Part shown: positions 43,609 through 52,205 of the stretch, in pieces | Position numbering within the stretch: position 1 is the stretch's first letter | Layout of the letters: the number at the start of each line of letters is the position of its first letter | Assembly (NCBI RefSeq): GCF_001543895.1 | Contig: NZ_JYIJ01000017.1 | Location: 310,001 to 374,000, forward strand | Origin: Carbonactinospora thermoautotrophica | GTDB taxonomy: Bacteria; Actinomycetota; Actinomycetes; Streptomycetales; Carbonactinosporaceae | Direction: 5' to 3' | DNA: 64,000 nucleotides | Made by a program: the position numbers and the translations under genes | The notes under the pieces: model-generated | Told to the model about the DNA's origin: nothing | The model's database searches: none | Seen by the model: only the letters and a program-made list of their open reading frames with translations

Positions 43609-44270
43609 TCAACGGGTGAGCGTGACGTCCAGGTGGTCCCGCACGGGCGGCTGGAAGAGGCCGTACGGCACGTACTCGGTGAGCCGCCCGTGCTCGACCT
43701 AGGCGACTTCTGCGATCTCGTCCGTGTCCACCACATGAGCCGTGCCGTCGACCATCTCGCAGGCGACGTAGATCATGGCGCGTCCCGTCCCGGGTGGACA
43801 CGTTCGCCGAGCACCTTGGACGCCTTGACCGTCACGCCGACTTCTTCTCGCGTCTCGCGTACGGCTGCCTGCTCGGCGGACTCCCCTGCCTCTACCTCGC
43901 CGGCCGGGAACTGCCACGACAGCGTTCCCTCCTGCACGCGTCGTCTCACCATGAGGACACGGCCGTCGTTCACGACGATCGCGGCGGCGATCGGCGGCCG
44001 GCTGTCAGGAACCTGCTGCGTCACGTCGTTCCTCAAGGCTTTCAGGACCGGCGGAGATCCTATCGGCGGGTCGGGGTGTGGCCTGGTCTTGACCTTGCCC
44101 GCCTGCCATCGTTGGAACTGGCGCTCCGAGATCGTCGCCGTCCGCAGCTTGCGGTCATTGTCAAGCTCCGCCAGAGCGTTCGCGGCGTTCTCGTACTGCC
44201 GGACGAACGTGTCCGGTCGCTGCCAGTGCCGCTGCTTGACCAGCAGAAGCGTCGGCGTCTCGCCCGTCAT
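43609..44270 (-). pseudogene. Chimeric HTH fragment fused to a broken NUDIX hydrolase gene
   Basis: From the ATG at 44270 the first 67 codons match the N-terminal DNA-binding region of the regulator at 48333-49775 (VKQRHWQRPDTF, RTATISERQFQRWQAG). After codon 67 the frame enters the leader of a NUDIX gene, whose own GTG is at 44024 with GAGG six bases upstream. The NUDIX box, from GEVEAG to REEVGV, is intact. Just before 43795 one base is missing relative to the relic copy at 47.7 kb, shifting the frame. The rest (GRAMIYVACEMVDGTAHVVD) then meets an in-frame TAG at 43699-43701, where a Trp codon is expected, before the true end at 43609. Two lesions make this a pseudogene. Confidence 0.8.
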
Positions 44271-44542
44271 GGCCACCCCCGTTCCGTGATCGCCGGTCTC
44301 CAGGGTAGGAGGTCGGCCGCCGCCCGTAGCCTTGCGCCGGATTATGTGGCGAGAGGTCGGCGAGATAACGGCGGGAGGTCGTGTTTCTGGGACTGTTCCT
44401 GAGCCGGAGTACCTGCTGCAGTTGGCGGTCGACCACGCCGGCAAGCCGCGGCAGCGCGGATGTGGCGCCACAGCGGTACGACGAGGTGCAGCAGGCCCGC
44501 GACGTCTTGGCGCGACCGGCCTGACAGCAGAGGGGAGAGGCG

Positions 44543-44956
44543 ATGCGATTACGCGCGGCGCTGCTCGGCGCGCTGATGCTGGTAGCCGCGAACACCCAAG
44601 GAGGGTGCGAGCAGTCGTCGGCAGGTGACTGCCGCTCGACCCGGGCGGCCGCGGTGCGGATCGTCACGTTCGACAGCGACGAGGCCGCACCGAAGCGCAA
44701 GCCTAGGAAGCCGCAGAAGGAACGGGTCTTCAACTGCTCACCCGGGGAGTCGAAGGCCTGGCGGGGCTTCAAGCCGTACAAGCGCGGATGGCGCACCGAC
44801 GGCAAGGGAAACTTCTACCAGTGGGACTACACCCACAACGACATCGAGTGGTGGAGGAAGCGAGGCTCGAAGTTGCACCACATGGGATCGCTCAACCCTA
44901 TAACTGGGCGCCTGTACAAGGATCCGAAGCACAAGCCGATGGACCTGCCATGGTGA
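44543..44956 (+). CDS. Putative exported colicin E3-type cytotoxic ribonuclease, copy 1
   Basis: A 137-residue protein. The N-terminus is a signal-like hydrophobic stretch (residues 4-17) followed by GGC at 20-22, a poor lipobox, so secreted or lipid-anchored. A basic Lys/Pro/Arg linker (51-62) leads to a C-terminal domain matching the colicin E3 cytotoxic domain: W-R-T-D-G then F-Y-Q-W-D-Y-T-H-N-D-I-E (91-102) with Asp95, His98 and Glu102 at the D-x-x-H-x-x-x-E spacing of the E3 catalytic residues, then HHMGSLNPITG, where E3 has a similar H-L-G-S-F-D-P-x-T-G run. The E3 C-terminal arginine has no clear counterpart. GGGGAGAG precedes the ATG. It is followed by an overlapping partner gene. Confidence 0.8.
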   Translation: MRLRAALLGALMLVAANTQGGCEQSSAGDCRSTRAAAVRIVTFDSDEAAPKRKPRKPQKERVFNCSPGESKAWRGFKPYKRGWRTDGKGNFYQWDYTHNDIEWWRKRGSKLHHMGSLNPITGRLYKDPKHKPMDLPW

Positions 44957-45348
44957 CCATCAGCTTCAGGGATATGGAAGGCCGCCGGGTCCGGGAGGAC
45001 GGGCGCCGCGTGGTCGTGGTGTGGCCGTTCACCGACTTCAACGGCTACCGGCTCCCATTACGGAAGACGGCGCGGCTGTGGTGGGGCTGGTACGTGGTGC
45101 GGCCGGCGCTGTGGGCGGCCTGGTACGTGGGGGACGCGTGGGACCCGCACGGGCCGCGGTACCACCTCGACGGGCACGGCATCAGCGACATGTCCCAGGT
45201 GCCGCGGCCGTTCTGGTGGCCGCTGCTGTGGCCGCTCGCCGCGCTCGGGCGGTGGGTGCACCGCCACTGCCCCGAGCGGCCCGACGAGCTGGACATGATG
45301 AGCACGCGGTACGACGAGGAAGACGACGAAGCCGCCCCCGGCCCGTAA
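44950..45348 (+). CDS. Tryptophan-rich partner protein, candidate immunity, copy 1
   Basis: A 132-residue protein of no family known to me. Its ATG lies inside the last codons of the toxin gene (seven-base overlap, CCATGGTGA), and it lacks a ribosome-binding site of its own, so it is translationally coupled. Eleven tryptophans, two hydrophobic stretches (about 43-61 and 87-103), a conserved AWDPHGPRYHLDGHG core, and an acidic tail (DEEDDEAA). It bears no visible resemblance to the colicin E3 immunity protein; the immunity role is inferred from gene order, overlap and matched variation between copies. Confidence 0.72.
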   Translation: MVTISFRDMEGRRVREDGRRVVVVWPFTDFNGYRLPLRKTARLWWGWYVVRPALWAAWYVGDAWDPHGPRYHLDGHGISDMSQVPRPFWWPLLWPLAALGRWVHRHCPERPDELDMMSTRYDEEDDEAAPGP

Positions 45349-45370
45349 GGATACCGTTGGTGAATTCAGC

Positions 45371-45413
45371 AACGGCCTACCCGTGACCGTGTCTTGGTCA
45401 CGGGTAGGCCGTT
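45371..45413. terminator. Perfect 18-bp hairpin after cassette 1
   Basis: AACGGCCTACCCGTGACC, loop GTGTCTT, GGTCACGGGTAGGCCGTT. It stands 23 bases after partner gene 1 and 41 bases before the transposase start. It may be the terminator of the cassette or the terminal region of the insertion element. Confidence 0.6.
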
Positions 45414-45453
45414 GTTCGTCGTGTAGGGGTGGCGTCGAAGTCCGGGGGTTGGG

Positions 45454-45965
45454 GTGTCGTTGCGTTCTGACGACCTTCAGGAGATTCCGGTCCAGACCGC
45501 GCGGGTGGCGCGAGCGGCGTTCCCGAAGGGAAGCCTCGCGATCCGGATCCGGGACGAGCTGGGAGTGTTGTTCACCGATGAGCAGTTCGCCGGGCTGTTC
45601 CCCAGGCGGGGGCGGCCTGCGGTGTCGCCGGGCCGGTTGGCGTTGGTGTCGGTGTCGCGGTTCGTCGAGGGCCTGTCGGACCGGCAGGCCGCCGAGGCGG
45701 TACGAGGTCGCATCGACTGGAAGTACGCCTTGGGCCTGAAGTTGACCGACCCGGGGTTCGACTACTCGGTGCTGAGCGAGTTCCGGTCCCGGCTGATCGA
45801 GGGCAGTGCCGAGCAGCGGGTGCTGGAGGCGGTGCTCGACCGCGCCGGTGCGGTCGGCCTGCTGCGCCCGGGTGGCCGGGCACGCACCGACTCCACCCAC
45901 GTGCTGGCCGCGATCCGCGGGCTGAACCGGCTGGAGTGCTGCGCGGAGACGCTGCGGGCGGCATT
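45454..45965 (+). mobile_element. Truncated IS1182-family transposase
   Basis: The N-terminal 170 residues of an IS1182-type transposase: EIPVQTARVARAAFPKG, LFPRRGRPAVSPGRLALV, SDRQAAEAVRGRIDWKYALG, LTDPGFDYSVLSEFRSRL and RTDSTHVLAAIRGLNRLE. GTG start. The frame is cut after L-R-A-A-L where the duplicated island sequence (AGCTTGCGGTC) begins at 45966. The DDE C-terminal half is gone, so it is inactive. It probably seeded or was split by the duplication. Confidence 0.88.
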
Positions 45966-46090
45966 AGCTTGCGGTCATTGTCAAGCTCCGCCAGAGCGTG
46001 CGCGGCGTTCTCGTACTGCCGGATGAACGTGTCCGGTCGCTGCCAGTGCCGCTGCTTGACCAGCAGCAGCGTCGGCGTCTCGCCCGTCAT
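45966..46090 (-). pseudogene. N-terminal fragment of the HTH regulator, copy 2
   Basis: ATG at 46090 starts MTGETPTLLLVKQRHWQRPD, as in the intact regulator at 48333-49775, but after about 41 codons the frame runs into the reverse of the transposase relic. Only the start region and the divergent promoter are kept. Confidence 0.8.
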
Positions 46091-46390
46091 GGCCACCCCC
46101 GTTCCGTGATCGCCGGTCTCCAGGGTAGGCAGGTCGGCCGCCGCCCATGACCTTTCGACCGGATATACGGCGAGAGGTCGGCGAAATGACGGCGGGAGGT
46201 CGTGTTTCTGGGACTGTTCCTGAGACGGAGTACCTGCTGCAGTTGGTGGTCGACCACGCCGACAAGCCTCGGCCGCTGCCGTGGCTGTGCTCAGCCGCGG
46301 TAGCGCGGTGTGGAGCTGCGGCGGTACGACGAGGTGCAGCAGGCCCGCGACGTCTTGGCGCGACCGGCCTGACAGCAGAGGGGAGAGGCG

Positions 46391-46810
46391 ATGCGATTAC
46401 GCGCGGCGCTGCTGGGCGCGCTGATGCTGGTAGCCGCGAACACCCAAGGGGGATGCGAGCAGTCGTCGGCAGGTGACTGCCGCTCGACCCGGGCGGCCGC
46501 GGTGCGGGTCGTCGCGTTCGACAGCGACGAGGCTGCGCCGAAGCGCAAACCGAAGCCACCGAAGAAACCCCAGAAGGAGCGGGTCTTCAACTGTTCCCCT
46601 GGGGAGTCGAAGATCTGGAAGAGATTCAAACCGTACAAGCGCGACTGGCGCACCGATGGGAAGTACTTCTACCAGTGGGACTACACCCACAACGACATCG
46701 AGAGATGGAGGAAGCGAGGCTCCAAGTTGTACCACGTCGGATCGCTCGACCCTGACAACGGCGACCTGTACAAGGGTCCGAAGCACAAGCCGATGGACCT
46801 GCCATGGTGA
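46391..46810 (+). CDS. Putative exported colicin E3-type cytotoxic ribonuclease, copy 2
   Basis: A 139-residue homologue of toxin 1. The first 50 residues are nearly identical; the linker is longer and more basic (KRKPKPPKKPQKER). The catalytic-type residues are Asp97, His100 and Glu104 in YQWDYTHNDIERW. Differences cluster at residues 71-93 and 105-127 (GESKIWKRF, KYFYQ, YHVGSLDPDNGDLYKG), while the end KHKPMDLPW is invariant because it overlaps the partner start. Same GGGGAGAG and ATG. The 300 bases upstream are almost identical to those of copy 3. Confidence 0.8.
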   Translation: MRLRAALLGALMLVAANTQGGCEQSSAGDCRSTRAAAVRVVAFDSDEAAPKRKPKPPKKPQKERVFNCSPGESKIWKRFKPYKRDWRTDGKYFYQWDYTHNDIERWRKRGSKLYHVGSLDPDNGDLYKGPKHKPMDLPW

Positions 46811-47211
46811 CCGTCAGCTTCAAGGACACCGAGGGGCGTCGGGTCCGCGAAGACGGTCGGCGCGTGGTCGTGATCTGGCCGTTCACCGACTTCAACGGCT
46901 ACCGGCTCCCGCTGCGGAGGACCGCGCAACTAGCGTGGAAGTGGTACATCGTGCGGCCGGCGAAGTGGACGGTCTGGTATCTAGCAGAGGCGTGGGACCC
47001 GCACGGGCCGCGGTATCACCTTGACGGGCGCGGCGTACATGACATGTCCGCTGCCCCACCACCGTTCTGGTGGCCGCTGCTGTGGCCGCTCGCCGCCCTC
47101 GGGCGATGGGTGCACCGCCACTGCCCCGAGCGGCCCGACGAGCTGGACATGATGCGCGTCATGTGGGACGACGAGGAAGACGAAGACGACGAAGCCGCCC
47201 CCGGCCCGTAA
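46804..47211 (+). CDS. Tryptophan-rich partner protein, candidate immunity, copy 2
   Basis: A 135-residue homologue of partner 1, starting inside toxin 2's stop by the same seven-base overlap. The core AWDPHGPRYHLDGRG and the F-W-W-P-L-L-W-P-L segment are kept; the stretch R-L-P-L-R-R-T-A-Q-L-A-W-K-W (residues 34-47) and positions 2-9, 51-63 and 82-86 differ from the other copies. The acidic tail is longer (DDEEDEDDEAA). Followed by a duplicated dehydrogenase fragment. Confidence 0.72.
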   Translation: MVTVSFKDTEGRRVREDGRRVVVIWPFTDFNGYRLPLRRTAQLAWKWYIVRPAKWTVWYLAEAWDPHGPRYHLDGRGVHDMSAAPPPFWWPLLWPLAALGRWVHRHCPERPDELDMMRVMWDDEEDEDDEAAPGP

Positions 47212-47239
47212 GGACCGAGGGCGGCGGCCCACGCGTGGC

Positions 47240-47653
47240 TCAGCCCCTGCCGAAGACCTTGCGCGTGACGCCGGTCCACAGCTCGGGCTTGGTGACGTTG
47301 CGGCCGTCGACGAGCGCCTTGACGCCGGGGAACTGCGCGGCGGAGACGTCCCGGTACTCGGCGTGGTCGGTGTGCAGGATCGCGCCCTCGACCGGCTCGC
47401 CGTAGTGGTACGGCACAAGGCCCAGCGCCGTCAGCTCCTCGTCGGTGTACAGCGGGTCGTGGACCAGCGCCTCGGCCCCGGCCTCCCGCAGCGCCGCCAC
47501 CATCGGGAACACGCCGGAGAACGCGGTCTCCTTGACGCCGCCGCCCCGGTACGAGGCGCCGAGCACGACGACGCGCTTGTCCTCCAGGCCGCCGAGGATG
47601 CCGTCGAGCAGGCCCACCATGTACGCGGGCTGGCCCTCGTTCAGCTCGCGGGC
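47240..47653 (-). pseudogene. Duplicated 3' third of the nucleotide-sugar dehydrogenase gene
   Basis: Codes for about the last 138 residues of the dehydrogenase at 50913-52205 (from ELNEGQPAYM to RKVFGRG) with only a few substitutions (for example I for L in LLDGILGG). The N-terminal NAD-binding part and the catalytic Cys are missing. At its 5' side it joins NUDIX-derived codons (MIHVAR), giving an open frame from 47665 that has no function as a dehydrogenase. Confidence 0.88.
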
Positions 47654-47810
47654 GACGTGGATCATGGCGCGTCCCGTCGCGGGGTGTACGCGTTCTTGAA
47701 CGTCTTGACCGTCACGCCGGCCTCTTCTCGCGTCTTGCGTACGGCTGCCCGCTCGGCGGACTCCCCCGCCTCGACCTCGCCGGCCGGCTGTCAGGAACCT
47801 GCTGCGTCAT
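47654..47810 (-). pseudogene. Second NUDIX gene relic
   Basis: About 155 bases matching the NUDIX relic at 43.6-44.0 kb. It keeps the C-terminal part HPATGRAMI in the correct frame, but the segment between the first codons and the NUDIX box (about 100 bases) has been deleted between two short CGGCCGG repeats, and the box is damaged (R-K for R-E). Its 5' end overlaps the last codons of the TIGR00725-like gene. Confidence 0.7.
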
Positions 47811-48300
47811 GTCCCGGCTGGCCGGCCGGCTTTGTGGCGAAGGCGAGGTCGACGGCGTGTTCGGGGTTGTCAGCCTGTTGGATGCCAGGGACCGGCCGGC
47901 CGTGGCGGTCGAGGAGTTGCCAGCCGCCGAGGGTGATGACGGGGACCTCGCCGCGGCGCATGGCCAGGGCGATCTCCGACAGGGTTCCCCAGGAGCCGCC
48001 GATGGCGATCACCGCGTCGGCGGCTTGGACGATCAGGGCGTTGCGCGCCTCCCCGAGCCCGGTGGGCAGCACGATCGTCAGGTCGGGACTGCAACCGTCG
48101 CGATCGGGCCGGGACAGGATGCCGACCACGGTGCCGCCGGCGGCGCGGGCTCCGGCGGCGACGGCGGCCATGACACCGGTGTAGCCCCCGCAGATCACGA
48201 CCGCGCCACGCCGGGCGAGCAGCCGGCCGACCTCCTCGGCGTTCTTCCGGTCCTCCTCGGTGCACTCACGTGGCCCGCAGACGGCTACCTGAATCGGCAT
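47791..48300 (-). CDS. TIGR00725 family (LOG-like Rossmann) protein
   Basis: A 169-residue protein with IQVAVCGPRECTEED, VICGGYTGVMAAVAAGARA (residues about 40-58) and IAIGGSWGTLSEIALAMR (about 100-117), the SLOG/lysine-decarboxylase-like fold; the family is uncharacterised and is thought to bind nucleotides. ATG 48300 with GGAGG five bases upstream. It lies 32 bases downstream of the HTH-TPR regulator, same strand, so probably cotranscribed. The last residues (after K-P-A-G) read into the NUDIX relic, so the original C-terminus was replaced by the rearrangement. Confidence 0.82.
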   Translation of the reverse strand: MPIQVAVCGPRECTEEDRKNAEEVGRLLARRGAVVICGGYTGVMAAVAAGARAAGGTVVGILSRPDRDGCSPDLTIVLPTGLGEARNALIVQAADAVIAIGGSWGTLSEIALAMRRGEVPVITLGGWQLLDRHGRPVPGIQQADNPEHAVDLAFATKPAGQPGHDAAGS

Positions 48301-48332
48301 GCGTTCCTCCATGCGGTTGTGCGACGGCGACA

Positions 48333-49775
48333 TCACGTGGCGGCCGAGGGTAGTTCGCGAGAGGCCGGGTAGGCGCAAAACAAGCTGATCTGCTCGCGCA
48401 GGTCGCCAGCGAGCGGACGCCCCGCGTGCTCCGGCTGGGCCAGGGCCTGGCTGATCGCGGCCACCCGTTGGACAACCGGCGCGGTACGGTGCTCGGGCGG
48501 GGTGGCGAGCACCGGTCGCAGATACTCGTCGGTGGCCTCCAAGTCGCCGAGCGCCAGGTACGCGCTGATGAGGTCCAGACGGGCGGCGGCAACGAACTCC
48601 GGACAGCGGTCGACGTCGGGGCCACGGGTGAACAGGTCGAGGGCCTGTTCGGCCTGGCTCACGGCGCGCTGCAGGTTGGAGCGATCGCCGAGGGCACAAT
48701 GGGCTTCGCTGGCATAGTAGGCGGCCTTGCCCGGACCGAAGCGGAACACCCCGGGCTCGTCGTCGGTCACCGGGTCGGGCGCCTCCGAGGCGACCCCCAG
48801 CGCTTGGTGGACCGCGCGCGTGTCACCGAGGGCCGCGTGCGCGCGGGCCTCCTGGCTGGCCAGGCGCAGCCGGGCGGTGCCGCTGGTGGCGTACGCCTGC
48901 CCGCTGTGGGCGATCTCGGCCGCCTCGCGGTACCGGCCGTTCCAGTAGGCGACGTTGGACTGCACCCACCGCACGTAGGCGCGCAGTGGGTTGTGCTGGG
49001 CGTAGTCGGCGCACAGCCACGCGGTGCGGGCGTGGGCCTCGGCCGCGTACGGGTGCCCCAGGTCGGCGCTGGCATGCGCGAGCAGCACGCAGACCTGCCC
49101 GGCGACCAGGTACAGGCGCGTGGTCTGCTCGGGGCGCTGCCGGCCGTCGAGCAATCGGAACACCTCACCCTGCAGGCGGGCAAGTTCACCGAACAGCACA
49201 TACGGCGGCCGCGTCAGGTACTGCACTGCCAACCGGCGCACGTCCACGTCCAACTGATCCAGCACGCCCTCGCCGACGTTGTTGGCCCCCGCCCGGCGGG
49301 CGAACCTCGCGGATTCCTCTGCGGCCATCGCGATCTCACCATCCCACGCCATCGCCTGAGCACCACACTCCGGCTCGGCCTCCCGGTGTGCGGTTCTAGC
49401 TGTACTGGGCCAGGGCGTTGGTGACAAGCCGGCGGGTGGTGTTTGATCTGAGCCAGCTTCCTTCCGCCACATAGGCCGGTCAGGCGGTCCGATCTGTCCT
49501 GAGGGCGGCACCGGGGCGAAAAGCCTGTCGACGGAGTAGCCGAACATGAACTCCAGCACCCGGCACTGATCAGGGTGCGGCCTGGTCTTGATCCTGCCCG
49601 CCTGCCATCGTTCGACCTGGCGCTCCGAGATCGTCGCCGTCCGCAGCTTCCGGTCGTTTTCCAGCTCCGCCAGAGCGTGCGCGGCGTTCTCGTACTGCCG
49701 GATGAACGTGTCCGGTCGCTGCCAGTGCCGCTGCTTGACCAAGTAGCGCAGCAGCGTCGGCGTCTCACCCGTCAT
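48333..49775 (-). CDS. HTH transcriptional regulator with TPR-like C-terminal domain
   Basis: A 480-residue protein. N-terminal DNA-binding region (about 5-85) of an XRE-like type common in actinobacteria: LVKQRHWQRPDTFIRQYENA, RTATISERQVERWQAGRIKT and CRVLEFMFGYSVDRLF. Residues 150-475 are all-helical with TPR-type repeats (VLLAHASADLGHPYAAEAHA, AHAALGDTRAVHQALG, AYLALGDLEATDEYL). ATG 49775 sits five bases after GGGGGTG. It is divergent from toxin cassette 3 and is the only intact one of three; the other copies keep just the N-terminus and promoter. Such regulators often sense a peptide or protein through the repeats. Control of the toxin cassettes is inferred. Confidence 0.85.
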   Translation of the reverse strand: MTGETPTLLRYLVKQRHWQRPDTFIRQYENAAHALAELENDRKLRTATISERQVERWQAGRIKTRPHPDQCRVLEFMFGYSVDRLFAPVPPSGQIGPPDRPMWRKEAGSDQTPPAGLSPTPWPSTARTAHREAEPECGAQAMAWDGEIAMAAEESARFARRAGANNVGEGVLDQLDVDVRRLAVQYLTRPPYVLFGELARLQGEVFRLLDGRQRPEQTTRLYLVAGQVCVLLAHASADLGHPYAAEAHARTAWLCADYAQHNPLRAYVRWVQSNVAYWNGRYREAAEIAHSGQAYATSGTARLRLASQEARAHAALGDTRAVHQALGVASEAPDPVTDDEPGVFRFGPGKAAYYASEAHCALGDRSNLQRAVSQAEQALDLFTRGPDVDRCPEFVAAARLDLISAYLALGDLEATDEYLRPVLATPPEHRTAPVVQRVAAISQALAQPEHAGRPLAGDLREQISLFCAYPASRELPSAAT

Positions 49776-50075
49776 GGCCACCCCCGTTCCGTGATCGCCG
49801 GTCTCCAGGGTAGGCAGGTCGGCCGCCGCCCATGACCTTTCGACCGGATATACGGCGAGAGGTCGGCGAAATGACGGCGGGAGGTCGTGTTTCTGGGACT
49901 GTTCCTGAGACGGAGTACCTGCTGCAGTTGGTGGTCGACCACGCCGACAAGCCTCGGCCGCTGCCGTGGCTGTGCTCAGCCGCGGTAGCGCGGTGTGGAG
50001 CTGCGGCGGTACGACGAGGTGCAGCAGGCCCGCGACGTCTTGGCGCGACCGGCCTGACAGCAGAGGGGAGAGGCG
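49776..50075. promoter_or_regulatory. Divergent control region of regulator and toxin cassette 3
   Basis: A 300-base region that is almost identical upstream of toxin 2 (46091-46390) and recognisable upstream of toxin 1. A GATATAC near 49845 is a possible -10. It also contains remains of a small reading frame (ETEYLLQLVVDHADKPRPL, and in another frame YDEVQQARDVLARPA ending at TGA) that looks coding but is frame-broken in every copy, so perhaps a lost small gene. Confidence 0.45.
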
Positions 50076-50489
50076 ATGCGATTACGCGCGGCGCTGCTGG
50101 GCGCGCTGATGCTGGTAGCCGCGAACACCCAAGGGGGATGCGAGCAGTCGTCGGCAGGTGACTGCCGCTCGACCCGGGCGGCCGCGGTGCGGGTCGTCAC
50201 GTTCGACAGTGACGAGGCTGCGCCGAAGCGCAAGCCTAGGAAGCCGCAGAAGGAGCGGGTCTTCAACTGCTCACCCGGGAACTCGGATTACTGGCAGGGC
50301 CTCAAGCCGTACAAGCGCGGATGGCGCACCGACGGCAAAGGAAACTTCTACCAGTGGGACTACACCCATAACGACATCGAGAAGTGGGAGAAGCGAGGCT
50401 CGAAGTTGTATCACAGGGGGTCACTCGATCCTAGGAATGGGCGCCCGTACAAGGGTCCGAAGCACAAGCCCATGGACCTGCCATGGTGA
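50076..50489 (+). CDS. Putative exported colicin E3-type cytotoxic ribonuclease, copy 3
   Basis: A 137-residue homologue of toxins 1 and 2. Signal-like N-terminus, basic linker (KRKPRKPQKER) and E3-like domain with Asp95, His98 and Glu102 in YQWDYTHNDIEKW. Copy-specific residues lie at 69-77 (NSDYWQGLK) and 103-125 (KWEKRGSKLYHRGSLDPRNG then RPYKG). Same ribosome-binding site and partner overlap. It is next to the only intact regulator, so this may be the parental cassette. Confidence 0.8.
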   Translation: MRLRAALLGALMLVAANTQGGCEQSSAGDCRSTRAAAVRVVTFDSDEAAPKRKPRKPQKERVFNCSPGNSDYWQGLKPYKRGWRTDGKGNFYQWDYTHNDIEKWEKRGSKLYHRGSLDPRNGRPYKGPKHKPMDLPW

Positions 50490-50887
50490 AGATCCGCTTC
50501 CACGACACGGAGGGACGCCGGGTCCGGGAGGACGGGCGCCGTGTCGTAGTCGTGTGGCCGTTCACCGACTTCAACGGCTACCGGAACCCGCTGCCAATGG
50601 CGGCATCGTTGTGGTGGCACCGGTACGTGGTGCGGCCGGCGCTGTGGGCGGCCTGGTACGTGGGGGACGCGTGGGACCCGCACGGGCCGCGGTATCACCT
50701 CGACGGGCACGGTATCAGCGACATGTCCCACGTGCCGCGGCCGTTCTGGTGGCCGCTGCTGTGGCCGCTCGCCGCCCTCGGGCGATGGGTGCACCGCCAC
50801 TGCCCCGAGCGGCCCGACGAGCTGGACATGATGAGCACGCGGTACGACGAGGAAGACGAAGACGACGAAGCCGCCCCCGGCCCGTAA
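50483..50887 (+). CDS. Tryptophan-rich partner protein, candidate immunity, copy 3
   Basis: A 134-residue homologue of the other partners, seven-base overlap with toxin 3. It begins MVKIRFHDTEGRR and carries NPLPMAASLWWHRYVV at residues 35-50, where the other copies are R-L-P-L-R-based; from WAAWYVGDAWDP onward it is nearly identical to partner 1. Its stop is 25 bases from the end of the convergent dehydrogenase gene. Confidence 0.72.
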   Translation: MVKIRFHDTEGRRVREDGRRVVVVWPFTDFNGYRNPLPMAASLWWHRYVVRPALWAAWYVGDAWDPHGPRYHLDGHGISDMSHVPRPFWWPLLWPLAALGRWVHRHCPERPDELDMMSTRYDEEDEDDEAAPGP

Positions 50888-50912
50888 GGACCGAGGGCGG
50901 CCCACGCGTGGC

Positions 50913-52205
50913 TCAGCCCCTGCCGAAGACCTTGCGCGTGACGCCGGTCCACAGCTCGGGCTTGGTGACGTTGCGGCCGTCGACGAGCGCCTTGATGCCG
51001 GGGAACTGCGCGGCGGAGAGGTCCCGGTACTCGGCGTGGTCGGTGTGCAGGATCGCGCCCTCGACCGGCTCGCCGTAGTGGTACGGCACAAGGCCCAGCG
51101 CCGTCAGCTCCTCGTCGGTGTACAGCGGGTCGTGGACCAGCGCCTCGGCCCCGGCCTCCCGCAGCGCCGCCACCATCGGGAACACGCCGGAGAACGCGGT
51201 CTCCTTGACGCCGCCGCCCCGGTACGAGGCGCCGAGCACGACGACGCGCTTGTCCTCCAGGCCGCCGAGGAGGCCGTCGAGCAGGCCCACCATGTACGCG
51301 GGCTGGCCCTCGTTCAGCTCGCGGGCCGCGCGCACGATCGTGGCCTCCGGGTCACCCCACAGGTAGAACCGCGGGTACACCGGGATGCAGTGGCCGCCCA
51401 CGGCCGGGCCCGGGGTGTGGATGTGGCTGAACGGCTGGGAGTTCGAGGCCTCGATGACCCGGTAGATGTCCACCCCCAGCTTCTCGGCGAACCGGGCGAA
51501 CTGGTTGGCCAGGCCGATGTTGACGTCCCGGTACGTGGTCTCGGCGAGCTTGGCCAGCTCGGCGGCCTCGGCCGAGCCCAGGTCCCACACGCCGTTGGGG
51601 CGGGCCAGGTCGGGCCGGGGGTCGAAGTCGAGCACGGCCTGGTAGAACTCGACCGCCTTCTCGGCGCTCGCCTCATCCACGCCGCCGACCAGCTTGGGGT
51701 ACTTGCGCAGGTCGGCGAAGACCCGGCCGGTGAAGACCCGCTCCGGGCTGTGGCACAGGTAGAAGTCCCGGCCGACCCTGAGCCCGGAGATCTCCTCCAG
51801 CAGCGGCTGGTACCGGTTGCGGGTGACCCCGAGCGGCGTGGTGGTCTCGTAGCAGACCAGCGTGCCCGGCTTCAGGCCCTTGGCGATGGCCCGGGTGGCG
51901 GCCTCCATCGGGCCGAAGTCCGGCTGGTAGTGCTCGTCCACCACGAGCGGGACGACGACGACCACGGCCTCGCTCTCGGCGACGGCGGCGGTGGTGTCGG
52001 TGGTGGCGCGCAGGTTCCCGCTCTCGACGACCTGCTTCAGCTTCACATCGAGTTCGGCCTCGCCGGGGAACGGCTCGACGCCGGCGTTGACGAGGTCGAC
52101 GACCTTCTCGTTGATGTCGGTCCCGATGACCTCGTGTCCCTTGGTGGCGAACTGTACGGCCAGCGGGAGGCCGATCTTCCCGAGCGCGACGACGCAGATC
52201 TTCAC
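50913..52205 (-). CDS. UDP-N-acetylglucosamine 6-dehydrogenase-like nucleotide-sugar dehydrogenase (WbpA/WecC type)
   Basis: A 430-residue UDP-glucose/GDP-mannose dehydrogenase family enzyme: N-terminal NAD site KICVVALGKIGLPLAVQFA (third Gly of GxGxxG kept, first changed), FYLCHSPERVFTGR, LAKLAETTYRDVNIGLANQF and the catalytic Cys in GPAVGGHCIPVYP near 270. The following WbpB/E/D-like genes point to oxidation of UDP-GlcNAc at C6 to UDP-GlcNAcA. The 3' third exists in a second copy at 47240-47653. ATG start. Confidence 0.9.
   Translation of the reverse strand: MKICVVALGKIGLPLAVQFATKGHEVIGTDINEKVVDLVNAGVEPFPGEAELDVKLKQVVESGNLRATTDTTAAVAESEAVVVVVPLVVDEHYQPDFGPMEAATRAIAKGLKPGTLVCYETTTPLGVTRNRYQPLLEEISGLRVGRDFYLCHSPERVFTGRVFADLRKYPKLVGGVDEASAEKAVEFYQAVLDFDPRPDLARPNGVWDLGSAEAAELAKLAETTYRDVNIGLANQFARFAEKLGVDIYRVIEASNSQPFSHIHTPGPAVGGHCIPVYPRFYLWGDPEATIVRAARELNEGQPAYMVGLLDGLLGGLEDKRVVVLGASYRGGGVKETAFSGVFPMVAALREAGAEALVHDPLYTDEELTALGLVPYHYGEPVEGAILHTDHAEYRDLSAAQFPGIKALVDGRNVTKPELWTGVTRKVFGRG

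Follow-up and report, generated by a model that had tools for sequence, protein, structure and literature searches.

E3-type RNases are known as the tips of large bacteriocins and contact-dependent toxins, and colicin E3 stops protein synthesis by cutting ribosomal RNA. Tox-ColE3 domains have been listed in actinobacteria and among toxins with signal peptides (T2SS-type), partnered by Imm-Cloacin or Imm45, and lineage-specific N-termini, such as MafB-N, have been described after signal peptides (PMC3482391). Small exported E3 toxins with an N-terminus of their own are therefore of a kind already known. The papers that name the corresponding Pfam family, PF09000, deal by their titles and abstracts only with Gram-negative systems or are reviews.

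Our subject is a minimal form of this weapon in Carbonactinospora thermoautotrophica. The window, by which we mean the whole stretch of 64,000 nucleotides that we analysed (contig NZ_JYIJ01000017.1, positions 310,001 to 374,000), carries three pairs of small toxin and partner genes within duplicated blocks (Table 1). We think these genes probably belong to a lineage-specific set of small Sec-exported E3-type ribosomal RNases that act, with cognate cytoplasmic immunity proteins, between neighbouring cells.

Table 1. Features of the three toxin-partner loci and the repeats around them (positions are those of the window).
Feature	Position	Strand	Size or content	Basis
Toxin copy 1	44543-44956	+	137 aa; signal-peptide-like leader, Lys/Pro linker, C-terminal E3-type RNase domain	PF09000 match, alignment, dN/dS <1
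Partner copy 1, probable immunity protein	44950-45348	+	132 aa, W-rich, acidic tail	Overlap with toxin stop, alignment
Toxin copy 2	46391-46810	+	139 aa	PF09000 match
Partner copy 2	46804-47211	+	135 aa	As partner copy 1
Toxin copy 3	50076-50489	+	137 aa; RNase domain at residues ~66-137, including D95/H98/E102	PF09000, PDB profile match, AF2, Foldseek to 1e44
Partner copy 3	50483-50887	+	134 aa	As partner copy 1
Intact divergent NsdA-family HTH/TPR-like regulator beside copy 3	48333-49781	-		NCBIfam NF053720
Copy-1 regulator remnant	43773-44288	-	N-terminus fused in frame to partial NUDIX domain	PF00293, repeat
IS1182-type transposase, N-terminal fragment, between copies 1 and 2	45454-46023	+		NF033551, PF05598
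Dehydrogenase 3' fragment, duplicated	47240-47665	-		99% repeat of full copy at 50913-52205
Duplicated block	45966-47653 vs 49645-51326		91.6%, 1702 columns; regulator 5' end, intergenic, toxin 2, partner 2, 3' fragment of nucleotide-sugar dehydrogenase	Self-BLAST
Duplicated block around copy 1	44146-45351 vs 45966-47214		86.6%	Self-BLAST

An earlier note on this DNA had described each toxin as coupled to a partner gene, and so it is: in all three copies the partner's ATG sits inside the toxin's stop region, cATGGTGA (CCATGGTGA). The divergent HTH-TPR regulator of the same note holds for copy 3, beside which a complete NsdA-family gene is found (126 bits to NCBIfam NsdA_fam_reg, NF053720, cut-off 75); at copies 1 and 2 there is a 5' fragment only. 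The in-frame fusion of an NsdA-type N-terminus to NUDIX at copy 1 is a product of rearrangement. An overlapping open reading frame at 49832-50161 was put down to chance.

We are nearly certain that the C-terminal ~70 residues of these toxins make up a colicin E3-type RNase domain. Pfam searches matched copies 1, 2 and 3 to PF09000 with E-values of 9.6e-6, 2.3e-5 and 2.8e-7 (26.3, 25.1 and 31.2 bits; curated cut-off 22), and a profile of the family searched against the PDB returned colicin E3 (E=1.9e-10) as its sole significant match. In the profile alignment WD..H...E falls on Asp510, His513 and Glu517 of colicin E3, corresponding to D95, H98 and E102 in copy 3, and this triad is kept in every window copy. 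The AF2 model of toxin copy 3 is confident from residue 71 (pLDDT blocks of about 77-93), its N-terminal half being disordered. Given this model, Foldseek placed colicin E3 in all of its best four matches (probability 1.00), the only confident matches in the PDB, with superposition at 2.0 Å over 47 columns and 34% identity for three of the four; the domain thereby takes colicin E3's twisted beta-sheet fold. The large disordered part of the toxin chain keeps the E-values modest (0.03-0.06). The E3 rRNase identity proposed in the earlier note, along with its catalytic residues, thus survived a search for profile and structural matches and a check on whether Asp, His and Glu lie apart. Pfam searches of the toxins (137-144 aa) found no receptor-binding, translocation or other second domain.

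The window is only part of the story. A whole-genome search with PF09000 gave ten matches, all above cut-off and in open frames of 143-230 aa, against none in 14 control genomes. The triplicate first noticed in this DNA is therefore right for the window but belongs to a ten-copy genome-wide family with two unrelated partner families. All ten are intact small genes, and decaying copies exist besides. Class A (n=5) comprises the three window copies, L014 and L015, each overlapping a W-rich partner, partner A; the ATGGTGA stop/start overlap is kept in 5/5 of these pairs. In class B (n=5; L009-L013) the next gene encodes a DUF6980 zinc-ribbon protein, partner B, and across the family partner type tracks toxin class in 10/10. 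One class-B paralogue shares 46.7% identity, across 45 residues, with the nuclease tips that colicin plasmids encode. Catalytic Asp and His are kept in all ten intact copies and Glu in nine of them. In the alignment, the column of colicin E3 Arg545, which we take to be an important residue near the C-terminus, holds Arg in class B and Lys or Pro in class A. One class-B toxin (L013 5352-5771), which lies at a CRISPR array beside cas3, has exchanged the catalytic Glu for Gly and is possibly inactivated.

What unites the two classes is the N-terminus. All ten toxins have an Arg-containing start, 12-15 hydrophobic residues, Ala-Ala, a Cys, a second Cys, R-AAV, a Lys/Pro linker and a third Cys; hydropathy peaks at residues 6-9 in every toxin, and each intact copy has 3-5 Cys. 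With its n-region Arg, hydrophobic stretch and Ala-Ala, this leader would appear to be a signal peptide. We considered a lipoprotein anchor, given the Cys after the hydrophobic stretch, and rejected it by eye, as positions -3/-4 are unlike a lipobox. The idea that the leader also serves other toxin types was dropped too: a leader-only profile matched this family alone in the genome, and in relatives' genomes it gave only weak low-complexity matches.

Partner A, of ~134 residues, is the product of six genes in the genome, always adjoining a class-A toxin or its remnant, and it was absent from 394 other genomes of the class and from plasmids and phages. Profile searches found it no Pfam, NCBIfam or PDB relative, and its low-confidence AF2 model (57.8 for partner copy 3) found no fold match in the PDB. 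Partner B matches DUF6980 (PF22400) above cut-off at each of the five class-B loci; neither partner family was recognised as Imm-Cloacin or Imm45 in these searches. The mature toxins are strongly basic (net charge +8 to +13), partner B is acidic (-6 to -9), as are most partner A proteins (-2 to -5), and partner genes survive as orphans where toxins are broken. From the tight linkage, the stop/start overlap, the orphan partners and the opposite charge we read the partners as immunity proteins, a reading well supported by context. The distance matrices of toxins and partners were not significantly correlated (five pairs per class; p=0.08 and 0.48), so co-divergence is not counted as evidence. 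There is a recent precedent for one toxin having immunity families unrelated to each other (PMC13392607).

For class B the immunity role of DUF6980 is probable. The family occurs in 30 of 294 other genomes of the order, one gene each, and no toxin-like ORF was seen upstream of it in the Streptomyces-order loci examined. There it is well conserved and solo, in about a tenth of the genomes searched (L075-L099); since it stands alone in Streptomyces, DUF6980 is not a dedicated immunity family. At L066 5268-5645 an orphan DUF6980 gene lies directly 3' of an HTH and DUF397-like gene pair, with no toxin. We found no mention of DUF6980 in the literature searched.

The duplicated blocks of the window have an uneven history. 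Copies 2 and 3 are 100% identical over two stretches, ~49784-50145 (the region upstream together with the leader) and 50758-50817. Between these flanks the toxin domain is down to 72-85% identity, and inside the partner the figure falls to 67%. The dS values for the two copies run in parallel: low in the leader (0.13) and in partner residues 86-117 (0.05), against 0.77 for the toxin domain. The middle segment of toxin domain and partner has, by this mosaic of identity and dS, a history separate from that of its flanks, as expected of recombining toxin-immunity cassettes. We regard as established what the domain is, that the genes are paired, that the family has expanded and that its history is a mosaic.

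Every class-A pair has dN/dS <1 in both leader and toxin domain, which marks the toxins as real, selected genes. The lowest dN/dS values are those of the leader among the window copies (0.05-0.11) and of partner residues 86-117; the toxin domain (0.18-0.72) and partner residues 35-85 (0.25-0.50) have higher ones. We set aside positive selection for these last two regions, elevated as they are, because their values stay below 1; dN/dS >1 is confined to the short acidic partner tail, in some pairs. Selection also bears on the thought that the family consists mostly of decaying duplicates, functionless at present. Decay is certainly there. Copies are broken at L030 and L031, a toxin remnant lies at L012 7689-8297, a second class-A partner, at L014 5961-6371, stands behind a toxin of which deletion has left the two ends, and the class-B toxin of L013 has lost its catalytic Glu; among the decayed copies one is frameshifted (C19:82873-83273) and one has dwindled to its leader (C19:65248-65415). 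Yet ten copies remain open, with class-A toxin dN/dS well below 1 and near-complete catalytic residues, and we find general decay very hard to credit.

Beyond this genome the domain is sparse: PF09000 occurs, in one copy each, in 8 of 393 other genomes of the order and in 2 of 311 other genomes from the phylum. In several of these it sits at the tip of a large protein, with an open frame of between 814 and 1702 aa. Pattern scans found relatives neither in named genomes nor in viral contigs, as expected when genus and family are represented by one genome. Streptomyces carries the E3 domain at the tip of large proteins, of RHS type in L069. A Klebsiella plasmid (L118 958-1716; CP079755.1) encodes a 252-aa 'SAR2788 family putative toxin' with an E3-like tip, 50% identical to class B over 64 residues, and an S8 peptidase gene adjoins it. 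Stand-alone cassettes have been described for polymorphic toxins (PMC3482391), and with the large Streptomyces proteins in mind our small genes might be silent stand-alone tips and immunity genes, kept as recombination donors for a large polymorphic toxin. The whole-genome search, however, found no large PF09000 protein here to receive them, each copy has its own leader and a ribosome-binding-like sequence, and the leader too is under selection. We give silent cassettes scant weight.

The main rival to an exported weapon is an intracellular toxin-antitoxin or abortive-defence role, in which the hydrophobic N-terminus either anchors the toxin or plays no part, and growth arrest sets in once the partner, an antitoxin, is lost; class-B pairs at CRISPR ends would then be addiction or guard elements. 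Three observations speak for it: other actinobacteria have leaderless small E3 proteins with a partner and an IrrE-like peptidase, class-B pairs adjoin three CRISPR arrays at the trailer end, in one case next to cas3, and HTH/TPR regulators often adjoin the pairs. Against it, a signal-peptide-like leader and 3-5 Cys are retained in ten of ten intact copies, the window class-A copies are not near CRISPR, PADLOC gave no convincing defence match for the pair, and two partner families with orphan partners better fit immunity to non-self toxins. We consider the intracellular role possible but unlikely.

Both of the settings just mentioned deserve description in their own right. Class-B toxin/DUF6980 pairs or remnants lie at the trailer ends of three arrays and at one lone repeat (L011 3898-5715, L031 878-4273, L013 5352-8051 and L030 5038-5458; L011 and L031 are 8 kb apart, so the cases are not fully independent). 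Each pair runs convergently with its array, some 170-260 bp away. The repeat is of 28 nt (GTCCTCCCCACGCACGTGGGGGTGATCC), and which end of an array is leader and which trailer was decided by comparison with type I-E repeats already known. The L013 pair is the one that adjoins cas3. In the other actinobacteria (L070 4009-5688, L071 4089-5662 and L120 1399-3051) a small leaderless E3-domain gene overlaps a partner of ~117-120 aa with a TFVD..DIDDYVD.WHD motif, and the IrrE-like peptidase gene comes next; the arrangement resembles a toxin-antitoxin operon of E3 type. Partners like this one also come after the RHS-type E3 toxin of L069 and the small E3 gene of L119.

If our toxins are indeed exported weapons, we infer their intercellular target and the action of the partner as follows. 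A putative signal peptide would take a basic mature toxin of ~120 residues out of the cell, while the partner, to judge from linkage, overlap, orphans and charge, would bind and block the toxin inside the producer. Neighbouring, probably related, cells without the matching partner would be hit. Once inside, the RNase domain may, by analogy, cut 16S rRNA at the decoding site, A1493/G1494, as expected from the biology of the E3 family (PMC9990079). For entry, the toxins offer a single delivery candidate, the conserved Cys...Cys...R-AAV stretch. Homogenised flanks would let recombination swap the toxin-domain/partner segment and so produce many specificities in one genome. A bolder version, for which we would not bet heavily, makes the conserved ~45-residue mature N-terminus, from Cys...Cys...R-AAV through the Lys/Pro linker, a delivery element for a Gram-positive envelope. 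The toxins would then be unusually small, self-delivering and ribosome-inactivating bacteriocins of ~120 residues, kept in the genome as interchangeable members of one repertoire and served by two immunity families unrelated to each other.

At least ten stand-alone exported E3 versions in a genome would, if true, show how far such a weapon can shrink. One producer would have two unrelated candidate immunity families, one of them new, for the same enzyme, and the mosaic copies of the window are natural variants with which to find the partner residues that determine specificity. Should the leader be enough for entry, one would have to ask how small proteins cross an actinobacterial envelope.

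How, then, does the family compare with its known relatives? With the cytotoxic domain of colicin E3, cloacin DF13 and pyocin S6 it shares profile, fold, the Asp/His/Glu triad and an adjacent immunity-like gene. It differs in size (137 aa against 551 aa for colicin E3), in having neither receptor-binding nor translocation domains, in a signal-like leader where colicins rely on lysis for release, in partners not recognised as Imm-Cloacin or Imm45 where colicins have Im3-type immunity, and, in class A, in lacking an equivalent of Arg545. Polymorphic Tox-ColE3 toxins (CDI, RHS, WXG/LXG and MafB; PMC3482391) have in common with it an E3 tip, a downstream immunity gene, a conserved N-terminus, a recombining toxin/immunity segment and orphan immunity genes. 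Their filament, repeats, processing protease and secretion-system domain are missing here, the leader is only ~65 residues long, and E3 is the only toxin type on it. The small E3 genes of L070, L071 and L120 are likewise stand-alone and overlap their partner, but they have no signal-like leader, belong with another partner family and occur singly. The class-B partner is a member of DUF6980, a family whose Streptomyces members are solo. Three things look new: the minimal stand-alone format, the expansion within one genome and the unrecognised partner A family. DUF6980 as a probable immunity protein is a further difference from the known systems.
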